Shown piece by piece: positions 1,967 to 11,305 of a stretch of DNA of 11,305 nt. This DNA comes from Clostridia bacterium. Its GTDB lineage: Bacteria; Bacillota; Clostridia; Oscillospirales; Acutalibacteraceae. Position 1 is the first letter of the stretch; each line of letters begins with the position of its first letter. Location of the stretch: contig JAGAAE010000009.1 of the NCBI GenBank assembly GCA_017615405.1, positions 1 through 11,305 of the forward strand, given 5' to 3'. A program made the position numbers and the translations under genes. The notes beneath the pieces were generated by a model. That model made no database searches, was not told the origin of the DNA, and saw only the letters and a list, made by a program, of their open reading frames with translations.

Positions 1967-2200
1967 TCAGTCGATCTCGCCCATTATCTTCTGCTCTTTG
2001 CGAACAGCGGCGGCACGCATAACGGTGCGGATAGCCTTTGCGATGCGGCCTTCCTTACCGATAACGCGACCCATATCGCCTTCCGCTACGTTAAGATGAT
2101 AAACGATGATACCTTCCTCGTTCGGCTCATCAACGGTAACGTTAACGGCATCGGGATCCTCAACTAAACCTTGTGCAATAGTAACTAATAATTCTTTCAT
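1967..2200 (-). CDS. khpA: KH-domain RNA-binding protein KhpA (YlqC)
   Basis: This 77-residue protein is a single KH domain. The RNA-contacting GxxG loop is GKEG within MGRVIGKEGRIAKAIRT (about residues 43-59). KhpA is a small RNA-binding protein of Gram-positive bacteria, known in streptococci to pair with KhpB (EloR/Jag) and to affect cell elongation and division. Its exact RNA targets are not evident from sequence. It lies 31 bases downstream of rpsP, with AAGGAGA (complement of 2212-2218) before the ATG, so it is in the ribosomal operon. The length matches the family and I see nothing irregular. Confidence 0.93.
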   Translation of the reverse strand: MKELLVTIAQGLVEDPDAVNVTVDEPNEEGIIVYHLNVAEGDMGRVIGKEGRIAKAIRTVMRAAAVRKEQKIMGEID

Positions 2201-2231
2201 GATAAATTTCTCCTTACAGATTTTTAAGTGA

Positions 2232-2477
2232 TTATTCGATTATTCCGTTCTTTTTAAGCAAAGCCTTAACGGTATCGGTCGGCTGAGCGCCGTTCTTTAT
2301 CCACTGCTTTGCCTTGTCGCCGTCGATATTAACGGCAGCGGGGTCCTTGGTCGGGTCGTAGGTTCCGATCTCTTCGATAAAGCGACCGTTACGGGGATAT
2401 CTCGAATCGGCAACGACAACGCGATAGAAAGGAGCCTTTTTTGCGCCTAAGCGGCGAAGTCTGATCTTTACTGCCAT
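2232..2477 (-). CDS. rpsP: 30S ribosomal protein S16
   Basis: S16 binds 16S rRNA early in assembly of the 30S body. The 81-residue product has the expected length and the family start [19 protein letters not shown], followed by [19 protein letters not shown] and a C-terminal segment with [12 protein letters not shown] strong ribosome binding site (GGAGGTG) lies seven bases before the ATG. The 48-bp gap to ffh has no obvious terminator, so it is probably transcribed with ffh. Confidence 0.97.
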
Positions 2478-4690: not shown

Positions 4691-5326
4691 TTATTTATTC
4701 TTGTTTGCAAGCTTATACGAAAGTGTCATAAGACTGTCGGTAAAATGAACGTTTTCTACCGAAACGTCAGGGAAATTGAGGGCGATATCGTAATGGCTGA
4801 AATTCCAAAAGCCCTTGACTCCCAATTTAATAAGCTGCTCGGTTATTGATGCCGCCGCAGATTTCGGGATGCACAAAACCGCGACCTCGGGCTTGTTTTC
4901 ACGGCAAAACTCGTCGAGCACCGAAATGCTTCTTATCGGCGTGTCCTTCACCGTCTGCCCGATAAGCGACTCCTTATGGTCGAAAAGCCCGATAACGCTA
5001 TATCCGAGGGAAGCAAAATTGACGTGCTGCGCGACGGCGCGACCCAAGTTCCCGACGCCGATCAAAACGGCGTTTTTCGGTCGCTCAAGCCCTAATATCT
5101 TCCCTATTTCACTCTGCAATATTTCAACGTTATATCCGTAACCCTGTTGTCCGAATTCACCGAAACAGTTAAAATCCTGCCGTATCTGGCTCGCGGTAAG
5201 TCCCATTCTTTTGCTGAGTTCACCCGACGATATCTTTGCGATACCCTTGGATTTAAGCTCACCCAAAAAGCGGTAATACCGTGGTAATCTTCTAATAACA
5301 GAGTTGGAAATTTCTCCTATTCTCAT
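4691..5326 (-). CDS. rex: Redox-sensing transcriptional repressor Rex
   Basis: Rex is a dimeric cytoplasmic repressor that senses the NADH/NAD+ ratio. NADH binding releases it from DNA and turns on fermentation and NADH-reoxidation genes in anaerobic Firmicutes. The 211-residue product has full family length. An N-terminal winged helix (about 1-80) includes the DNA-reading segment LTASQIRQDFNCFGEFGQQG (43-62). The Rossmann NAD(H) domain has GVGNLGRA at 90-97 and Asp116 in GLFDHKES at the end of the second strand. A C-terminal swapped helix includes VHFTDSLMTLSYKLAN. The ATG follows a GGTGGAG ribosome binding site. It stands alone with its own terminator and is divergent from rubrerythrin. The family assignment is secure. 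Control of rubrerythrin or of rex itself is only inferred from a half-site in the intergenic region. Confidence 0.96.
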   Translation of the reverse strand: MRIGEISNSVIRRLPRYYRFLGELKSKGIAKISSGELSKRMGLTASQIRQDFNCFGEFGQQGYGYNVEILQSEIGKILGLERPKNAVLIGVGNLGRAVAQHVNFASLGYSVIGLFDHKESLIGQTVKDTPIRSISVLDEFCRENKPEVAVLCIPKSAAASITEQLIKLGVKGFWNFSHYDIALNFPDVSVENVHFTDSLMTLSYKLANKNK

Positions 5327-5483: not shown

Positions 5484-6026
5484 ATGAAAAAGTTTGTATG
5501 TCTTGTTTGCGGTTACGTTTACGAGGGCGAGGAAGCCCCTGCCGAGTGCCCGATCTGTAAGGCTCCCGCCTCAAAATTTGAGGAGCAGTCCGGCGAAATG
5601 ACCTGGGCGGCGGAGCACGTTGTAGGCATTGCCAAGGGCGTTGACCAGAGGATCATCGACGGTCTTCGCGAGAACTTCAACGGCGAGTGCTCGGAAGTCG
5701 GTATGTACCTCGCGATGTCGCGCGTTGCGTTCAGAGAGGGTTATCCCGAGATAGGACTTTATTGGGAAAAGGCGGCATTTGAAGAGGCCGACCACGCTTC
5801 AAGATTCGCCGAGATGTTAGGCGAGGTCGTAAGCGACAGCACCAAGCAGAACTTGAAGGTTCGCGTTGACGCCGAGAACGGCGCGACCAAGGGCAAGACC
5901 GAGCTTGCAAAGCTTGCCAAGGAATTGGGTCTTGACGCGATCCACGACACCGTCCACGAAATGGCTCGTGATGAAGCACGGCATGGAAAAGCGTTTAAAG
6001 GTCTCCTTGACAGGTACTTCAAATAA
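5484..6026 (+). CDS. rbr: Reverse rubrerythrin (N-terminal rubredoxin domain)
   Basis: This is a non-haem iron enzyme that reduces hydrogen peroxide, and in clostridial relatives also oxygen, to water with electrons that ultimately come from NAD(P)H. It acts in the cytoplasm as part of anaerobic oxidative-stress defence. The 180 residues begin with a rubredoxin-like Fe(Cys)4 site: Cys6, Cys9, Cys22 and Cys25 in CLVCG and CPICK. A ferritin-like diiron domain follows, with [11 protein letters not shown] around Glu68 and two ExxH motifs, EADH at 101-104 and EARH at 164-167. Classical rubrerythrin has the order reversed (diiron first, rubredoxin last), hence 'reverse' rubrerythrin. All ligand residues are present. 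It is divergent from rex, which suggests shared redox control. A second, broken copy of its 3' end lies at 6529-6612. Confidence 0.94.
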
Positions 6027-6102: not shown

Positions 6103-6106
6103 AATG

Positions 6107-6135
6107 TTGCAAAATATGTCGTAATATGATAAAAT
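6107..6135 (+). promoter_or_regulatory. Promoter of the toxin mRNA
   Basis: TTGCAA (6107-6112) and TAAAAT (6130-6135) have the ideal 17-base spacer. Transcription would start near 6142 and give a leader of about 87 bases before the toxin ATG, long for so small a gene, as is usual for type I toxins. Confidence 0.7.
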
Positions 6136-6176
6136 ACCTTTCGGAATAAGGTGTGCCTTAACGGTAGGCGGTTAGT

Positions 6177-6223
6177 CCTCTTTATTTAAGAGGGCACTTT
6201 CGCCCTCTTCCAGAAGGGGGCGG
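6177..6223 (+). promoter_or_regulatory. Competing leader hairpins and Shine-Dalgarno of the toxin
   Basis: AAGAGGGC (6188-6195) pairs with GCCCTCTT (6202-6209). The same AAGAGG can instead pair with the upstream CCTCTT (6177-6182), so two mutually exclusive hairpins exist just before the ribosome binding site. The Shine-Dalgarno region GGGGGCGG (6216-6223) is complementary over eight bases (one G-U) to CCGCCCTC (6319-6326) right after the toxin stop codon. Long-range pairing would shut translation, a known design of type I toxin mRNAs. Structure is seen; function is inferred. Confidence 0.6.
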
Positions 6224-6228
6224 TGCTT

Positions 6229-6318
6229 ATGATTACATACGGTGAGTTGTTTTTACTTCTTTCTCTTATTGTTTCCATAATCGCACTTGTTGTTAATATA
6301 ACAAACAAAAAGAAATAA
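6229..6318 (+). CDS. Small hydrophobic type I toxin (holin-like toxin family)
   Basis: The 29-residue peptide runs MITYGELFLLLSLIV, then about ten more hydrophobic residues, and ends INITNKKK-like with a lysine tail (residues 24-29 are ITNKKK). One membrane helix spans about residues 7-24. A short polar start (MxTY), a single hydrophobic helix and a cationic end are the pattern of the Firmicute putative holin-like toxins, related in style to TxpA/BsrG. Such peptides insert in the cytoplasmic membrane and depolarise or damage it unless an antisense RNA blocks their mRNA. AAGGGGG lies eight bases before the ATG. The gene has its own promoter and long structured leader, and a convergent antisense RNA promoter lies about 80 bp past the stop. 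Recognition rests on size, composition and context. Toxicity is inferred. It could also be a small regulatory membrane peptide. Confidence 0.78.
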   Translation: MITYGELFLLLSLIVSIIALVVNITNKKK

Positions 6319-6393
6319 CCGCCCTCGCCAAAGTCGCGGTTATTTCTAATAACTAAACAAAGGCTAACCGTCTATACGGCATACCTTATTTCC
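6300..6393 (-). ncRNA. Antisense antitoxin RNA (predicted)
   Basis: From the consensus promoter at 6400-6428 a minus-strand RNA would start near 6393 and end at the hairpin 6311-6347, which on this strand is followed by TTTTGTTTGTT (complement of 6300-6310), a proper terminator. The RNA of about 90-95 bases overlaps the toxin stop codon and 3' region by perfect antisense over roughly 6300-6350, as in the convergent txpA/ratA arrangement of Bacillus. Its 5' part is a near-copy of the toxin leader rather than its complement. It contains no credible reading frame. Confidence 0.7.
6311..6347. terminator. 12-bp hairpin at the end of the toxin gene, shared by both transcripts
   Basis: AGAAATAACCGC (6311-6322) pairs perfectly with GCGGTTATTTCT (6336-6347); the toxin stop codon lies in the stem. 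On the minus strand it is followed by a T-rich run and should end the antisense RNA. On the plus strand the following ATTTCTAATAAC is a weak T tract, so toxin mRNA may read on. Confidence 0.75.
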
Positions 6394-6399
6394 ACCCTT

Positions 6400-6428
6400 A
6401 TTATATACCCTGTTTTAAAAATTGTCAA
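6400..6428 (-). promoter_or_regulatory. Consensus promoter of the antisense RNA
   Basis: On the minus strand perfect TTGACA (complement of 6423-6428) and perfect TATAAT (complement of 6400-6405) are separated by exactly 17 bases. It is clearly stronger by consensus than the toxin promoter (TTGCAA/TAAAAT), as expected for an antitoxin RNA that must be in excess. No minus-strand gene lies downstream to explain it otherwise. Confidence 0.85.
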
Positions 6429-6528
6429 GTATTCTTATCAAAAGCGATTTGAAAAGACTTTGTTTTTCACTCATATCTTTTTTGATTTGTGTGCTGTTTT
6501 GTGTGTTATTTTTAAATAAACCACATAA

Positions 6529-6612
6529 GCAAAAGGAAGAACAGACATTTTCCGTGCCGAAGCACGGCATGGCAAGGCGTTTAAGGGTTTGCTTGACAGA
6601 TATTTTAAATAA
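6529..6612 (+). pseudogene. 3' remnant of a second rubrerythrin gene
   Basis: In the frame of 6556-6612 the DNA encodes [17 protein letters not shown] and stop, identical in all 17 residues to the C-terminus of the intact rubrerythrin (codons at 5973-6026). The two stretches differ at eight bases in 54, every one synonymous. Upstream the similarity stops: the frame reads only GRTDIFRA-like residues before a TAA at 6526-6528. This is the tail of a former paralogue that was under protein-level selection before it lost the rest of its gene; it cannot make a functional enzyme. It contains the second ExxH iron-binding motif. A good terminator follows at 6629-6660. A 13-bp direct repeat (TTTTAAATAAACC at 6510-6522 and 6603-6615) flanks the remnant and may mark the deletion event. 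The 6429-6528 stretch before it is AT-rich with no gene I can support. Confidence 0.82.
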
Positions 6613-6628: not shown

Positions 6629-6660
6629 AAAAGGTGCGAGTGATTTGCTCGCACCTTTTT
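6629..6660 (+). terminator. Rho-independent terminator after the rubrerythrin remnant
   Basis: AAAAGGTGCGAG (6629-6640) pairs with CTCGCACCTTTT (6648-6659), a 12-bp perfect stem, loop TGATTTG, ending in TTTTT. It presumably served the lost rubrerythrin copy. Confidence 0.85.
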
Positions 6661-6707
6661 AGATTGTAGATATCAGACGATAGACAATAGACGATGTGGC
6701 AATATTG
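6660..6707 (+). repeat. Heptad tandem repeat tract 3 with core
   Basis: Five 7-bp units (TAGATTG, TAGATAT, CAGACGA, TAGACAA, TAGACGA; 6660-6694) are followed by a diverged core TGTGGCAATATTG. Confidence 0.8.
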
Positions 6708-6715
6708 ATTTCGGG

Positions 6716-6786
6716 CGTAGGGGCAGATATTATCTGCCCGCCGATTTACGCACAAACAAAACGGGCGGATGATATCCGCCCCTACG
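6716..6786. repeat. REP-like doublet (R3 forward, R4 inverted), 71 bp
   Basis: R3 is CGTAGG then GGGCAGAT-ATT-ATCTGCCC (hairpin 6721-6739). R4, inverted, is GGGCGGAT-GAT-ATCCGCCC followed by CTACG (hairpin 6763-6781). They are head-to-head with 20 bases between. The stems differ by compensated changes (A/G with T/C), so the pairing, not the sequence, is kept. Two inverted GTAG-hairpin units form a REPIN-like structure. Confidence 0.75.
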
Positions 6787-6790
6787 ATTT

Positions 6791-6879
6791 TAGATATTAG
6801 ACGTTAGATGATAGACATTAGACGATGTATCAATATTGCCTAATCGTCTGATGTCCGATATCTGAAATCTGATGCCTGA
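6791..6879. repeat. Heptad tracts 4 and 5 arranged as a palindrome around the core
   Basis: Five forward units (TAGATAT, TAGACGT, TAGATGA, TAGACAT, TAGACGA; 6791-6825), the core TGTATCAATATTGCC (6826-6840), then five inverted units (CGTCTGA, TGTCCGA, TATCTGA, AATCTGA, TGCCTGA; 6845-6879). ACATTAGACGAT pairs with ATCGTCTGATGT at 11 of 12 positions next to the loop, so the whole stretch is a long imperfect hairpin. Confidence 0.82.
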
Positions 6880-6882
6880 ATC

Positions 6883-6958
6883 CGTAGGGGACGGCGTCCT
6901 CGACGTTCCGTCAAAATGCGATAATCAAGACCGGAACAACACACAGGTTGTTCCCTAC
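6883..6958. repeat. REP-like doublet (R5 forward, R6 inverted), 76 bp
   Basis: R5 starts CGTAGG followed by a looser hairpin in which GGGACG pairs with CGTTCC. R6 is GGAACAAC-ACACAG-GTTGTTCC followed by CTAC (6933-6957), again inverted. The stem sequences are unrelated to the other copies while the GTAG heads are kept. Confidence 0.6.
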
Positions 6959-8215: not shown

Positions 8216-11200
8216 ATGAAGACTTCAAGTTTCAGCAAGCGTCTTTTATCCGTGATATTGGCGCTTGCGATGATGGTCTCGCTGTTCTCGGGTTTAGGCA
8301 GCATCTTCACCGTTTCTGCGGATGAAGGTGTAGAAGTCGGCGTCTTTATTATAGACCCAGATAACCCTGAAGGCAGCCCCATTCCGCTGATGTCAAAGGC
8401 GATTGATAATTACAGTCATTCCTACATTGGCGGCACCCACAGCATCAGGGTCACCGTGCCTGATGAGTTCTACAGTTCCGACTACAACAACAGTAGGAAT
8501 TATGTTTTCCACAGTTGGCCGAGTACCATCAGGGTCAAAGACCTGGATGCTTCCGAGTACGTATATATTGGTGTTGATGACGACGACCGGGAGGATAACG
8601 TACTCAACATCACCTTTGATTCTCCGCTTTCATTCAACAGGATGAGAATAGAAGGTCCCGTTTACGACAAGGAATACAAGATCAGCTACTGGACAGCCAG
8701 CGACAGTGCCTACGGTGATTGCGAAGAAATCGAGGACGAAACGTTCTACTGCTCCTGGGATGGTTATTTCCATTTGATCGATTATCCTGAAGAGTTGATC
8801 CCCGAGGGCAAGACCTTCGTCGCATGGGCTGAATATTACACCGGCGTTATGTATGCCGCAGGCACCGAGGTCAGCTATCCTACTGATGCGATGTATTTCG
8901 TCCCCGTATTTGCCGAGAAGGCGACCCAGTCGGGCTATTTCGTATACTTTAAGGACTATGAAACCAATCAGATATACGATATAGTTTACTTCGATCCTTC
9001 GGTCGACGACGGCTACTACACCGCTTATGAGCCGACAAAGCCCGGCTATTCGTTCCTTTACTGGTATACCGAGGATTATGAGTATGACGCTCATGAATGG
9101 GTAGATGAAGAGCCCCCGACAGTAACCACATACTATGCAAGATGGTCACCGGATCTCTATGAGGTATACACCGAGACCTCGGGCAGCGCCTACGTTAATT
9201 TCCGCAATTCAAGCAGCGCTTATTGCGGCGACGACGTAATATTCAAGGTTGGCTCAACTAAGGACAATGAGAATATCTCGAAGGTTGAGGTTATCGGTCT
9301 TGACAGCAACAGCCCCGTTCCGTATTATTACGATGCGGAAGAGGAAGAATATCGCTTCACTATGCCGGCGCAGGATGTTGTTATCAAGGTCGAAACGTCG
9401 GTTACAGAGTATCTTGTAACCTTCCTCGATGAAAACGGCGGTTACTATGCTTCAAGAACGGTTGCCGAGGGTGAAACCATTTCCTTCTTCAATATGCCTT
9501 TCGCTCCCTTCAAAACAGGCTACACCTTTGCAGGCTGGGAGATCGTAAGCGATAACCCGTTCGCAGGAATGTTCGGCGGAAACACCACCTTCGACTCGAG
9601 CACTCCCGTTACAAGCAACCTGTATGTCAAAGCTACATACACGGGCAACGATTACAGAGTTTACAAGGCTGACGACTGCGACGAAGAGCTTGAATACTTA
9701 TACGTTCGCTCTACCGACCAGGATAAGGACCTTACCGACGAGGTTACAAACTACGTTACCGCTCCCGCGGGCGACAAGGTTTATCTTGACATCGCTCCCA
9801 CTCCTACATACAGCATCACCGGTATCGCTGTTCGTGAGCGCGGAACAGGCAACTTTGTTGTTGCTCCCACTCTTTTGAGAAAGTATAAGGACGGCGAAAA
9901 CAACGATTGCTATGAATATGCTTTTGAAATGCCCACAAGCAATGTTGAAATAGCAGTTTACGTCGCCGCAAACGCTTATGACGTTATTGTTGATGAAAAC
10001 ATACCCGCAGGCGGAACATACCGCATCAACGGTTATGACACCAACAATCTCGCGGTTCCGCAGGGCGATTATGCTTATATCGAGATCATCCCCGAAAAGG
10101 GATACTATATCGAGAGCGTTGAATCGTTCTATTATGACGAAAACAACAATATCGCTTTACCTGATGACAATCTCTTTATAGACGACTTCGATAACGGTTT
10201 CTATTCCTTCCTTATGGTTTCGTCGGACGTTTACGTTACCATCAACTATGCTCCTTATGAGTATATGGTAAGCGTTTCCAGTACAAACATCGATAACTAT
10301 AAGCCGGTTTGGAACGGCGACGAATACGAAGCTATCGAATCACTCGACGATACAGAGGTTTCAAAGGGTCTCGTTGTTCTCTTAGACGAATTTGATGATC
10401 CTTACACCGATTGGGTTATGCTTGAGCCCGGCAAGAGCGCTATGCTCCCGCTCAACGCTACCGACGCTATCGTCGGCGATCAGATCCGCTTCATTATCGA
10501 AGAATGCACAGGCTATGACCTCGAAGCTGTTGTCGTAACCTATGCCGACGGAACAAAGACCGTTCCCGTAACTCTTAAAGACGGCGTTTATTACTTCTAT
10601 ATGCCGGCTGACGACGTTATGATCACCGCTTCCTTCAAGGAAGAGACCTACAAGATCTATAAGTACACAGCCAGCGAAGAATACAACACCGATGCTGAAC
10701 ACGCCGTTATGGGCGAGGTCAACATCCAGGGTCTTCGTGAGAAGATCGTATCCGCCGATTATAAGGAACTTGTTGAAGTTACCGCAATTCCGAAGGCGGG
10801 ATACTATGTTGAATCCATCTCCTATGAATTAAGAGACGGCACCAACAAGGACGGCAAGACCGTTGTTGATTTCTCCGAAGCCGCAAGATATGACGGCGTT
10901 CAACTCACCGACTCTCCCGACACAATGCAGTCTATCGAATTCTATATGCCTGCTTGTGATGTTGAGATCAGTGTTACCTACGGTAAGATCGAGTATTCAA
11001 TTCAGACCGAGGTTGCAAGCGGCGACGAGACAGGTACCATCACGGTCAACGATTATGCTTACTATGACGATGAAGTTACCTGCGCCGTTACACCTGAATA
11101 CGGTTACGTTTTGAGCAAGATCAACGTTAAGAATCTTGCTACCGGCAAGACCATTGCCATCAAGACCGACACGATCGACCGTACCTACGGCGACGAATTC

Positions 11201-11305
11201 TATTTCGATATGCCGGCTTCTTCGGTTAAGATCACCGCTACCTTCGTTAAGGATAAGTATTCGGTCATCTACAAGGATACCAACAACACCGTTATCGGTA
11301 TTGAA
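8216..11305 (+). CDS. Large secreted repeat protein (partial, runs off the right end)
   Basis: The frame is open for 1030 codons from the ATG at 8216, which has a strong AGGAGGAG site, to the window end, with no stop. Residues 1-35 are a typical signal peptide: a KTSSFSKR basic start, a hydrophobic core, and cleavage expected after VSA-35. Residues 36-240 I do not recognise. Residues about 241-310 and 399-475 look like Listeria-Bacteroides (InlB B) repeats, for example KTGYTFAGWE and TYYARW. From about 379 on, the motif aromatic-x-aromatic-x-MP-x-x-DV-x-I-x-V recurs, with its Met at residues 383, 572, 667 (MV here), 796, 911 and 999, marking beta-rich Flg_new_2-type modules of about 90-190 residues. 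The protein is rich in Asp, Glu and Tyr. It is probably exported by Sec and acts at the cell surface, possibly in adhesion. The C-terminal anchor (LPXTG, S-layer or other) is outside the window. Ligand unknown. Confidence 0.88.
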   Translation, partial: MKTSSFSKRLLSVILALAMMVSLFSGLGSIFTVSADEGVEVGVFIIDPDNPEGSPIPLMSKAIDNYSHSYIGGTHSIRVTVPDEFYSSDYNNSRNYVFHSWPSTIRVKDLDASEYVYIGVDDDDREDNVLNITFDSPLSFNRMRIEGPVYDKEYKISYWTASDSAYGDCEEIEDETFYCSWDGYFHLIDYPEELIPEGKTFVAWAEYYTGVMYAAGTEVSYPTDAMYFVPVFAEKATQSGYFVYFKDYETNQIYDIVYFDPSVDDGYYTAYEPTKPGYSFLYWYTEDYEYDAHEWVDEEPPTVTTYYARWSPDLYEVYTETSGSAYVNFRNSSSAYCGDDVIFKVGSTKDNENISKVEVIGLDSNSPVPYYYDAEEEEYRFTMPAQDVVIKVETSVTEYLVTFLDENGGYYASRTVAEGETISFFNMPFAPFKTGYTFAGWEIVSDNPFAGMFGGNTTFDSSTPVTSNLYVKATYTGNDYRVYKADDCDEELEYLYVRSTDQDKDLTDEVTNYVTAPAGDKVYLDIAPTPTYSITGIAVRERGTGNFVVAPTLLRKYKDGENNDCYEYAFEMPTSNVEIAVYVAANAYDVIVDENIPAGGTYRINGYDTNNLAVPQGDYAYIEIIPEKGYYIESVESFYYDENNNIALPDDNLFIDDFDNGFYSFLMVSSDVYVTINYAPYEYMVSVSSTNIDNYKPVWNGDEYEAIESLDDTEVSKGLVVLLDEFDDPYTDWVMLEPGKSAMLPLNATDAIVGDQIRFIIEECTGYDLEAVVVTYADGTKTVPVTLKDGVYYFYMPADDVMITASFKEETYKIYKYTASEEYNTDAEHAVMGEVNIQGLREKIVSADYKELVEVTAIPKAGYYVESISYELRDGTNKDGKTVVDFSEAARYDGVQLTDSPDTMQSIEFYMPACDVEISVTYGKIEYSIQTEVASGDETGTITVNDYAYYDDEVTCAVTPEYGYVLSKINVKNLATGKTIAIKTDTIDRTYGDEFYFDMPASSVKITATFVKDKYSVIYKDTNNTVIGIE

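Follow-up and report, generated by a model that had tools for sequence, protein, structure and literature searches.

Organization of the locus

The window, by which we mean the whole 11,305-nt stretch of contig JAGAAE010000009.1 (Clostridia bacterium) analyzed here, carries a compact candidate toxin-antitoxin locus downstream of a rubrerythrin gene. Its features are listed with the evidence for each.

5484..6026, plus strand: rubrerythrin gene, its 3' end a putative integration site (profile match, neighbourhood survey)
6107..6135, plus strand: putative toxin mRNA promoter, TTGCAA-17-TAAAAT with TG preceding the -10 (9 of 12 consensus matches)
6143..6157, plus strand: outer long-range helix, 5' arm (fold, cognate-arm pairing, covariation)
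6163..6178, plus strand: inner long-range helix, 5' arm, GGTAGGCGGTTAGTCC (fold, cognate-arm pairing, covariation)
6212..6220, plus strand: ribosome-binding site AGAAGGGGG, predicted paired (sequence, accessibility prediction)
6229..6318, plus strand: putative toxin ORF, 29 aa (reading-frame list, peptide and pattern searches, codon-position differences)
6300..6393, minus strand: predicted antisense (antitoxin) RNA, about 94 nt (ends placed from promoter and hairpin; fold computed)
6311..6347, minus strand: hairpin predicted to end the antisense RNA (inverted repeat, T-run count, covariation, A-C over G-U polarity)
6362..6375, plus strand: inner long-range helix, 3' arm (cognate-arm pairing, covariation)
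6378..6393, plus strand: outer long-range helix, 3' arm (cognate-arm pairing, covariation)
6400..6428, minus strand: putative antisense RNA promoter, TTGACA-17-TATAAT, reading from 6428 to 6400 (12 of 12 matches, kept in relatives)
6553..6612, plus strand: stray 60-nt copy of the rubrerythrin 3' end, 83% identical, a putative attachment-site repeat missing from an earlier note on this DNA (repeat search)
6629..6659, plus strand: perfect 12-bp inverted repeat, a possible end of the full-length toxin mRNA

Two further features lie nearby. Short related repeat runs (TAGATATCAGACGATAGAC...) and an inverted repeat around GGGCGGATATCATCCGCCC occupy 6665-6900, beside the locus, and a long ORF of 1030 codons runs from 8216 to 11305, open at the window end; with its signal-like start and repeated segments, it probably encodes a surface protein.

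A constrained peptide frame

The ORF at 6229-6318 has 29 codons, and its translation, MITYGELFLLLSLIVSIIALVVNITNKKK, comprises a single hydrophobic segment followed by a lysine tail. An alternative in-frame GTG at 6223 would lengthen the peptide by two residues; the ATG at 6229 is the start common to relatives, both in a peptide search, which does not impose the start, and in a DNA pattern search, which does. No second copy of the peptide or the locus was found in the genome of origin (assembly 64.5% complete). Among 1077 close pairs of relatives, differences in the 28-codon genes number 10019, 5482 and 15226 at codon positions 1, 2 and 3, a skew by codon position indicating that these genes are under coding constraint. 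The earlier note had proposed a tiny hydrophobic peptide gene here and had made its reading depend on conservation of the peptide frame; the ORF is complete, and the frame is kept in these relatives. The locus therefore has a small hydrophobic peptide under coding constraint, as a type I module should.

Convergent promoters and an antisense hairpin

Both promoters proposed in the earlier note stand, the plus-strand one (9/12) being weaker than the minus-strand one (12/12), which is of sigma-70 type and the sole perfect promoter among 16 sites between 5000 and 8000 of the window. Downstream of the 3' arm, a minus-strand promoter scores 12/12 in 35 of 73 loci and at least 11/12 in 60 of 73 (window included); since shuffled sequence reached 11 in 10 of 1460 cases, its presence in relatives is above chance. 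The plus-strand promoter averages 9.5/12 over the 73 loci, against 8.1 in shuffled sequence. Loci that encode other peptide classes (see below) have a 12/12 minus-strand promoter in 27 of the 29 measured. The antisense promoter is harder to discern among 20 loci of the wider phylum, where only 5 reach at least 11/12. The nearest identified minus-strand gene, for a Rex repressor (4691-5326), sits on the far side of the rubrerythrin gene, so that no other obvious gene accounts for the antisense promoter, as had been claimed.

The hairpin pairs 6311-6322 with 6336-6347 (12 pairs, 13-nt loop). The toxin stop codon falls inside its stem, and the C-terminal lysine codons face its T-run. Counting T residues in the 9 bases that follow the stem gives 7 for the minus side and 2 for the plus side. 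The earlier note had assigned the T-run to the antisense side exclusively; this holds for the free run, while the plus side retains a T-rich tract, TTATTTCT, within the stem, where a fraction of plus-strand transcripts may end. A strict terminator pattern, whose loop limit made it overlook the minus-strand hairpin at 67 of 70 loci, was replaced by the T-run count. General plus-strand termination before the 3' arm was rejected, given that the strict pattern found none in 70 loci and that a plus-side T-run of at least 6/9 occurs in only 4 of 65 hairpins. Only 8 of 65 loci showed a plus-strand terminator no more than 200 nt from the 3' arm, a point against the module reading proposed below. Together, the conserved promoter and hairpin point to a gene for an antisense RNA overlapping the toxin mRNA.

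Pairing between the ends of the putative toxin mRNA

The 5' end of the predicted mRNA (6143-6178) pairs with 6362-6393, a feature absent from the earlier note. The RNA 6142-6395 has a minimum free energy of -96.6 kcal/mol (z = -8.7), compared with -55.3 kcal/mol for shuffled sequences, none of which (0/200) folded as well. As a consequence of the arm pairing, the first stretch of the antisense RNA would be nearly identical to that of the toxin mRNA. The arms vary in concert between loci: cognate arms pair with a mean of -49.2 kcal/mol and non-cognate arms with -36.5 kcal/mol, the cognate partner being the best of all in 24 of 70 loci and better than the mean in 69 of 70. A separate alignment of 70 loci comprised 61 distinct ones.

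Covariation was quantified in alignment A1, which holds 69 sequences. From 80 pattern matches, 7 with an open ORF or without a 3' arm were excluded, followed by L067 (insertion), L081 (contig end), L076 (leader insertion; same locus as L043) and one duplicate. A1 contains 216 two-sided cells, against 68 in shuffles and at most 62 in slid versions, with two-sided changes at 8 of 9 outer-helix pairs; at 11 inner-helix pairs the 5' side is fixed by the search pattern. Every covariation measure but one lies above all shuffles, the exception being the number of further pair types, a weak signal that 23 of 500 shuffles matched. Three model-found sets (A2, A3 and A4) agree with A1 on covariation; they are fitted to a covariance model, the four sets partly overlap, and related sequences within them are not independent.

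The strand on which selection acts can be read from the polarity of wobble pairs, as a wobble in the plus-strand RNA appears on the plus strand as G-T and one in the minus-strand RNA as A-C. In the long-range helix the ratio of G-U to A-C is 108:38, 91:37, 126:35 and 51:6 in A1 to A4 (G-U-consensus pairs left out). This large excess of G-U points to selection on the pairing of the plus-strand RNA at this helix. The hairpin leans towards the minus strand, with ratios of 10:28, 2:27, 16:22 and 2:7, significant only in A1 and A2. Taken at sequence level, these polarities argue for a plus-strand RNA that reaches the 3' arm and a minus-strand RNA with a hairpin of its own.

Across the 69 loci, the ribosome site has a mean predicted unpaired probability of 0.20. 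Masking the 3' region lowers its accessibility by more than 0.05 in 34 of 69 loci and raises it in 5. Because masking shifts the predicted mean only from 0.20 to 0.12, we rejected a riboswitch-like mechanism by which the antitoxin would occlude the ribosome site.

Distribution of the peptide and of the RNA

At E<=1 the peptide search hit 33 of 198 genomes. Sixteen matches (window included) lie at E<=1.3e-5, and one of the 16, with 93% peptide identity, belongs to another family of the order, which suggests horizontal transfer. The DNA pattern, comprising leader and start and thereby imposing the first peptide residues, occurs in 74 stretches of genome_contigs and 3 of viral_contigs, mostly named Clostridia, Oscillospiraceae, Ruminococcaceae or Lachnospiraceae. 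The ORF is complete in 76 of the 80 pattern matches (window included), and 73 of those 76 encode 27-32 residues. A search of plasmids and phages by blastn with 6105-6430 found no match, nor did tblastn with a family-like 28-mer, where the low-complexity filter may hide hydrophobic peptides; two further patterns run on viral contigs also found none.

A covariance model of the window-type RNA, termed R1, scores the window at 196.9 bits. The earlier note had proposed such a search; R1 finds the RNA in 91 of 295 genomes of the order (E<=0.001), in 35 of 299 genomes of the phylum (E<=1e-6), other families included, and in 44 of 70 genomes of the genus (E<=0.01), with about 58 genus matches at E<=1e-7. 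The literature listings consulted returned no report of this RNA family or of a rubrerythrin 3'-end site.

Several relatives show structural peculiarities. Tandem arrays of 2-5 module copies, about 330-450 bp apart, occur in L252, L280, L246, L256, L260 and others. A palindrome-ended insertion of about 260 bp interrupts the leader at the same point in L043 (about 2160-2410, minus strand) and L046 (about 1760-2035), both from one genome. In L053/L067 and L060, sequences starting CCCCAAAA(A)GTT.AGACAAAA, which we take to resemble an insertion-sequence end, lie just downstream of the ORF and break the antisense region.

Different peptides on one RNA

Many genus loci found with R1 carry peptides absent from the peptide search. 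They include a 29-mer class (MYITNQDMFQ...), a class of 23-24 residues at 22 loci (for example MEYYYLIVLVLIVATGYIISIKK; one has lost its stop) and a class of 21 residues at 4 loci. For nine short-class peptides, Pfam returned nothing at E<=1 and NCBIfam nothing above cut-off; one of the nine has a sub-cut-off match. Their codon positions are also constrained (707/248/1028 differences; 105 pairs, 17 sequences), and similar short classes recur in an order-wide sample, viral contigs included. Aligned with the 28-mers they score 25.4, slightly above the 22.6 (sd 0.36) of a shuffled-core control, and they may or may not be related to them. Overall, the RNA carries Hol_Tox-like 28-mers, the 23-24-residue '..ATGYIxSIKK' class, 20-22-residue classes and others.

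The window shares 84-95% identity with G049, G002 and G033 in the antisense promoter and 3' flank, but 25-27% in the leader past the arm and 51-52% in the ORF. Compared with G046, it is 89-100% identical over leader, ORF and 3' arm and differs in the flanks. Core and shell have thus recombined.

Family assignment

The earlier note had suggested a profile search against the holin-like toxin family Hol_Tox (PF16935). The window peptide falls short (13.6 bits, cut-off 23.3), while the peptides of 2 of 10 relatives pass (27.9 and 24.0 bits), as do 4 of 10 in a second set encoded on homologous RNA, among them three on R1 RNA in other families of the phylum (48.8, 44.2 and 24.6 bits). The top Pfam match of the window peptide, haem-transporter PF16954, was rejected as chance (17.5 bits, cut-off 27), and its best NCBIfam match, ComI (NF052249), lies far under cut-off (19.1 against 55 bits). 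The only Rfam signal in the window is BsrG (RF01412), at 30.0 bits under a gathering cut-off of 55. BsrG was found above cut-off in none of 41 genomes, Bacillus subtilis serving as a passing control, and at the gathering cut-off in none of 16 further loci; at lower scores a signal appeared in only 2 of 8 loci. Within the genus, 6 of 6 sub-cut-off BsrG matches fall on R1 loci.

The closest parallels to the window locus are bsrG/SR4 and bsrE/SR5 of B. subtilis, which likewise encode a small hydrophobic peptide with a charged C-terminus and a convergent antisense RNA over the 3' part of the mRNA. They also have a paired ribosome site and a main helix whose 3' part the antitoxin contacts (PMC6562991), and BsrG itself gives sub-cut-off matches at window-type loci. 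The window conforms in sequence to their plan, in which a long helix joins the mRNA ends and the antitoxin is complementary to the 3' part, a complementarity that follows from the antisense layout. It departs from them in lacking an above-cut-off Rfam match, in an overlap of about 94 nt versus the 100-140 bp given for theirs in PMC6562991, and in its host, a gut lineage of Clostridia. The note's comparison with the txpA/ratA plan also fits: txpA/RatA and Hol_Tox share peptide size and layout with the window, and several peptides on the same RNA pass PF16935, unlike the window peptide.

End pairing has counterparts elsewhere. In hok/Sok, too, the two ends of the full-length toxin mRNA pair, which closes the molecule, and the ribosome site is sequestered. 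The same is described for aapA/IsoA of Helicobacter pylori, on the example of aapA3 (PMC6733600). Unlike both, the window locus shows no sign of activation by 3' processing, and no sequence relation to them is apparent in peptide or RNA. The type I modules of Clostridioides difficile share a convergent antisense RNA, a small membrane peptide and a link to mobile elements; their peptides, set beside the window locus by description only, are given as 34-59 residues long and dissimilar in sequence to those of Bacillus (PMC6563280).

The rubrerythrin 3' end as a probable integration site

In the window, the module sits between the rubrerythrin gene and the stray 60-nt copy of its 3' end, and nothing else is left there. 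Nine of 58 genus R1 matches lie within 2.1 kb downstream of a rubrerythrin gene, 8 of the 9 in its direction. A copy of the rubrerythrin 3' end, 57-66 nt long, follows downstream in 11 of 21 rubrerythrin segments, a set chosen partly for a nearby module. In G067 (L226, 600-4770), the interval between gene and copy holds a tyrosine-type integrase adjoining the copy (Phage_integrase, 66 bits) and a Mob_Pre mobilisation protein (49.7 bits). Judged from these sequences, the 3' end of the rubrerythrin gene is very likely an attachment site of small mobile elements. Because the G067 integrase and mobilisation gene lie between the same two landmarks, the window locus probably served an integrative element at that site as its addiction module and was left behind.

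Discussion

The experiments in silico described above make it highly probable that the locus is a type I toxin-antitoxin module on the chromosome, of the Hol_Tox (TxpA/BsrG-BsrE) kind, which supports the earlier reading of the window as a type I system: peptide frame, antisense promoter and hairpin are conserved together. Comparison among relatives brings out each of these elements and the plus-strand pairing as well.

By this scheme, a plus-strand mRNA would start near 6142, encode the 29-residue membrane peptide and read to at least 6393. Its ends would pair into the long closing helix, and, the ribosome site being predicted paired too, the full-length mRNA would be closed. The minus-strand RNA (about 6393 to 6300) would span the complete 3' arm and the hairpin and extend over the final codons. 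In B. subtilis, the antitoxins RatA and SR5 lead to cleavage of the toxin mRNA by RNase III, SR4 additionally tightens the bsrG ribosome site, and the ribosome sites of txpA, bsrE and bsrG are buried in 4 or 5 GC pairs (PMC6562991). By analogy with txpA/RatA and bsrE/SR5, the antisense RNA may bind the 3' third of the mRNA and bring about RNase III cleavage. In Helicobacter aapA3, the full-length mRNA is held inactive by a 5'-3' interaction for as long as its 3' end stays untrimmed (PMC6733600), and 3' trimming might by analogy activate the window-type mRNA. Were the locus lost, the short-lived RNA would vanish first and the peptide would damage the membrane. The transcripts, the role of RNase III, toxicity and addiction are what we infer from this layout.

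Other readings of the same features have to be weighed. The module may be whole in sequence yet have fallen silent or out of use after the loss of its element; it is the only thing left between rubrerythrin and the stray 3' copy, and relatives are interrupted by insertions in the leader (L043/L046) or downstream of the ORF (L053/L067 and L060). We consider such decay unlikely given that the ORF, ribosome site, both promoters, hairpin and both arms of the window are whole and that R1 scores it so highly. A small membrane peptide under antisense control might instead regulate competence or a membrane enzyme, a ComI-like use to which the far sub-threshold NCBIfam match would lend itself. This seems to us quite unlikely, as the peptide class is free to change on a constant RNA, which fits a generic membrane effect better than a specific partner, and as peptides above the Hol_Tox cut-off are encoded on the same RNA, though 'holin-like toxin' is itself an annotation.

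It is very improbable that the repeats mark the two ends of a small transposable element and that mRNA pairing is a by-product. The arms do form an inverted repeat 214 nt apart, and copies are many and sometimes in tandem; yet both promoters lie outside the arms, the arms vary between loci while matching within each, and G-U pairs far exceed A-C pairs, an excess that DNA ends would not create. On this polarity the transposon reading was rejected, and the type I module remains our preferred reading.

Type I modules of this kind are already known, and the interesting part is the RNA chassis with its interchangeable peptides. We lean towards the view that the conserved unit across much of the phylum is an ancient RNA chassis (both promoters, closing helix and antitoxin hairpin) and not the toxin, the peptide being exchangeable and swapped at a fixed site by recombination between the repeated arms. 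Such exchange has a precedent: in other Bacillus species, BsrE/H peptides may be encoded by loci of the bsrG type, and both RNAs look related (PMC6562991).

An integration site at the rubrerythrin 3' end would explain why a self-poisoning gene stands beside an oxygen-defence gene. The tiny size and rapid divergence of their peptides make type I toxins hard to find. Should the RNA chassis be what persists, a covariance model would find loci that peptide searches miss, family-less peptide classes included, and would make testable whether any short membrane-active peptide suffices as the toxin of such a module.
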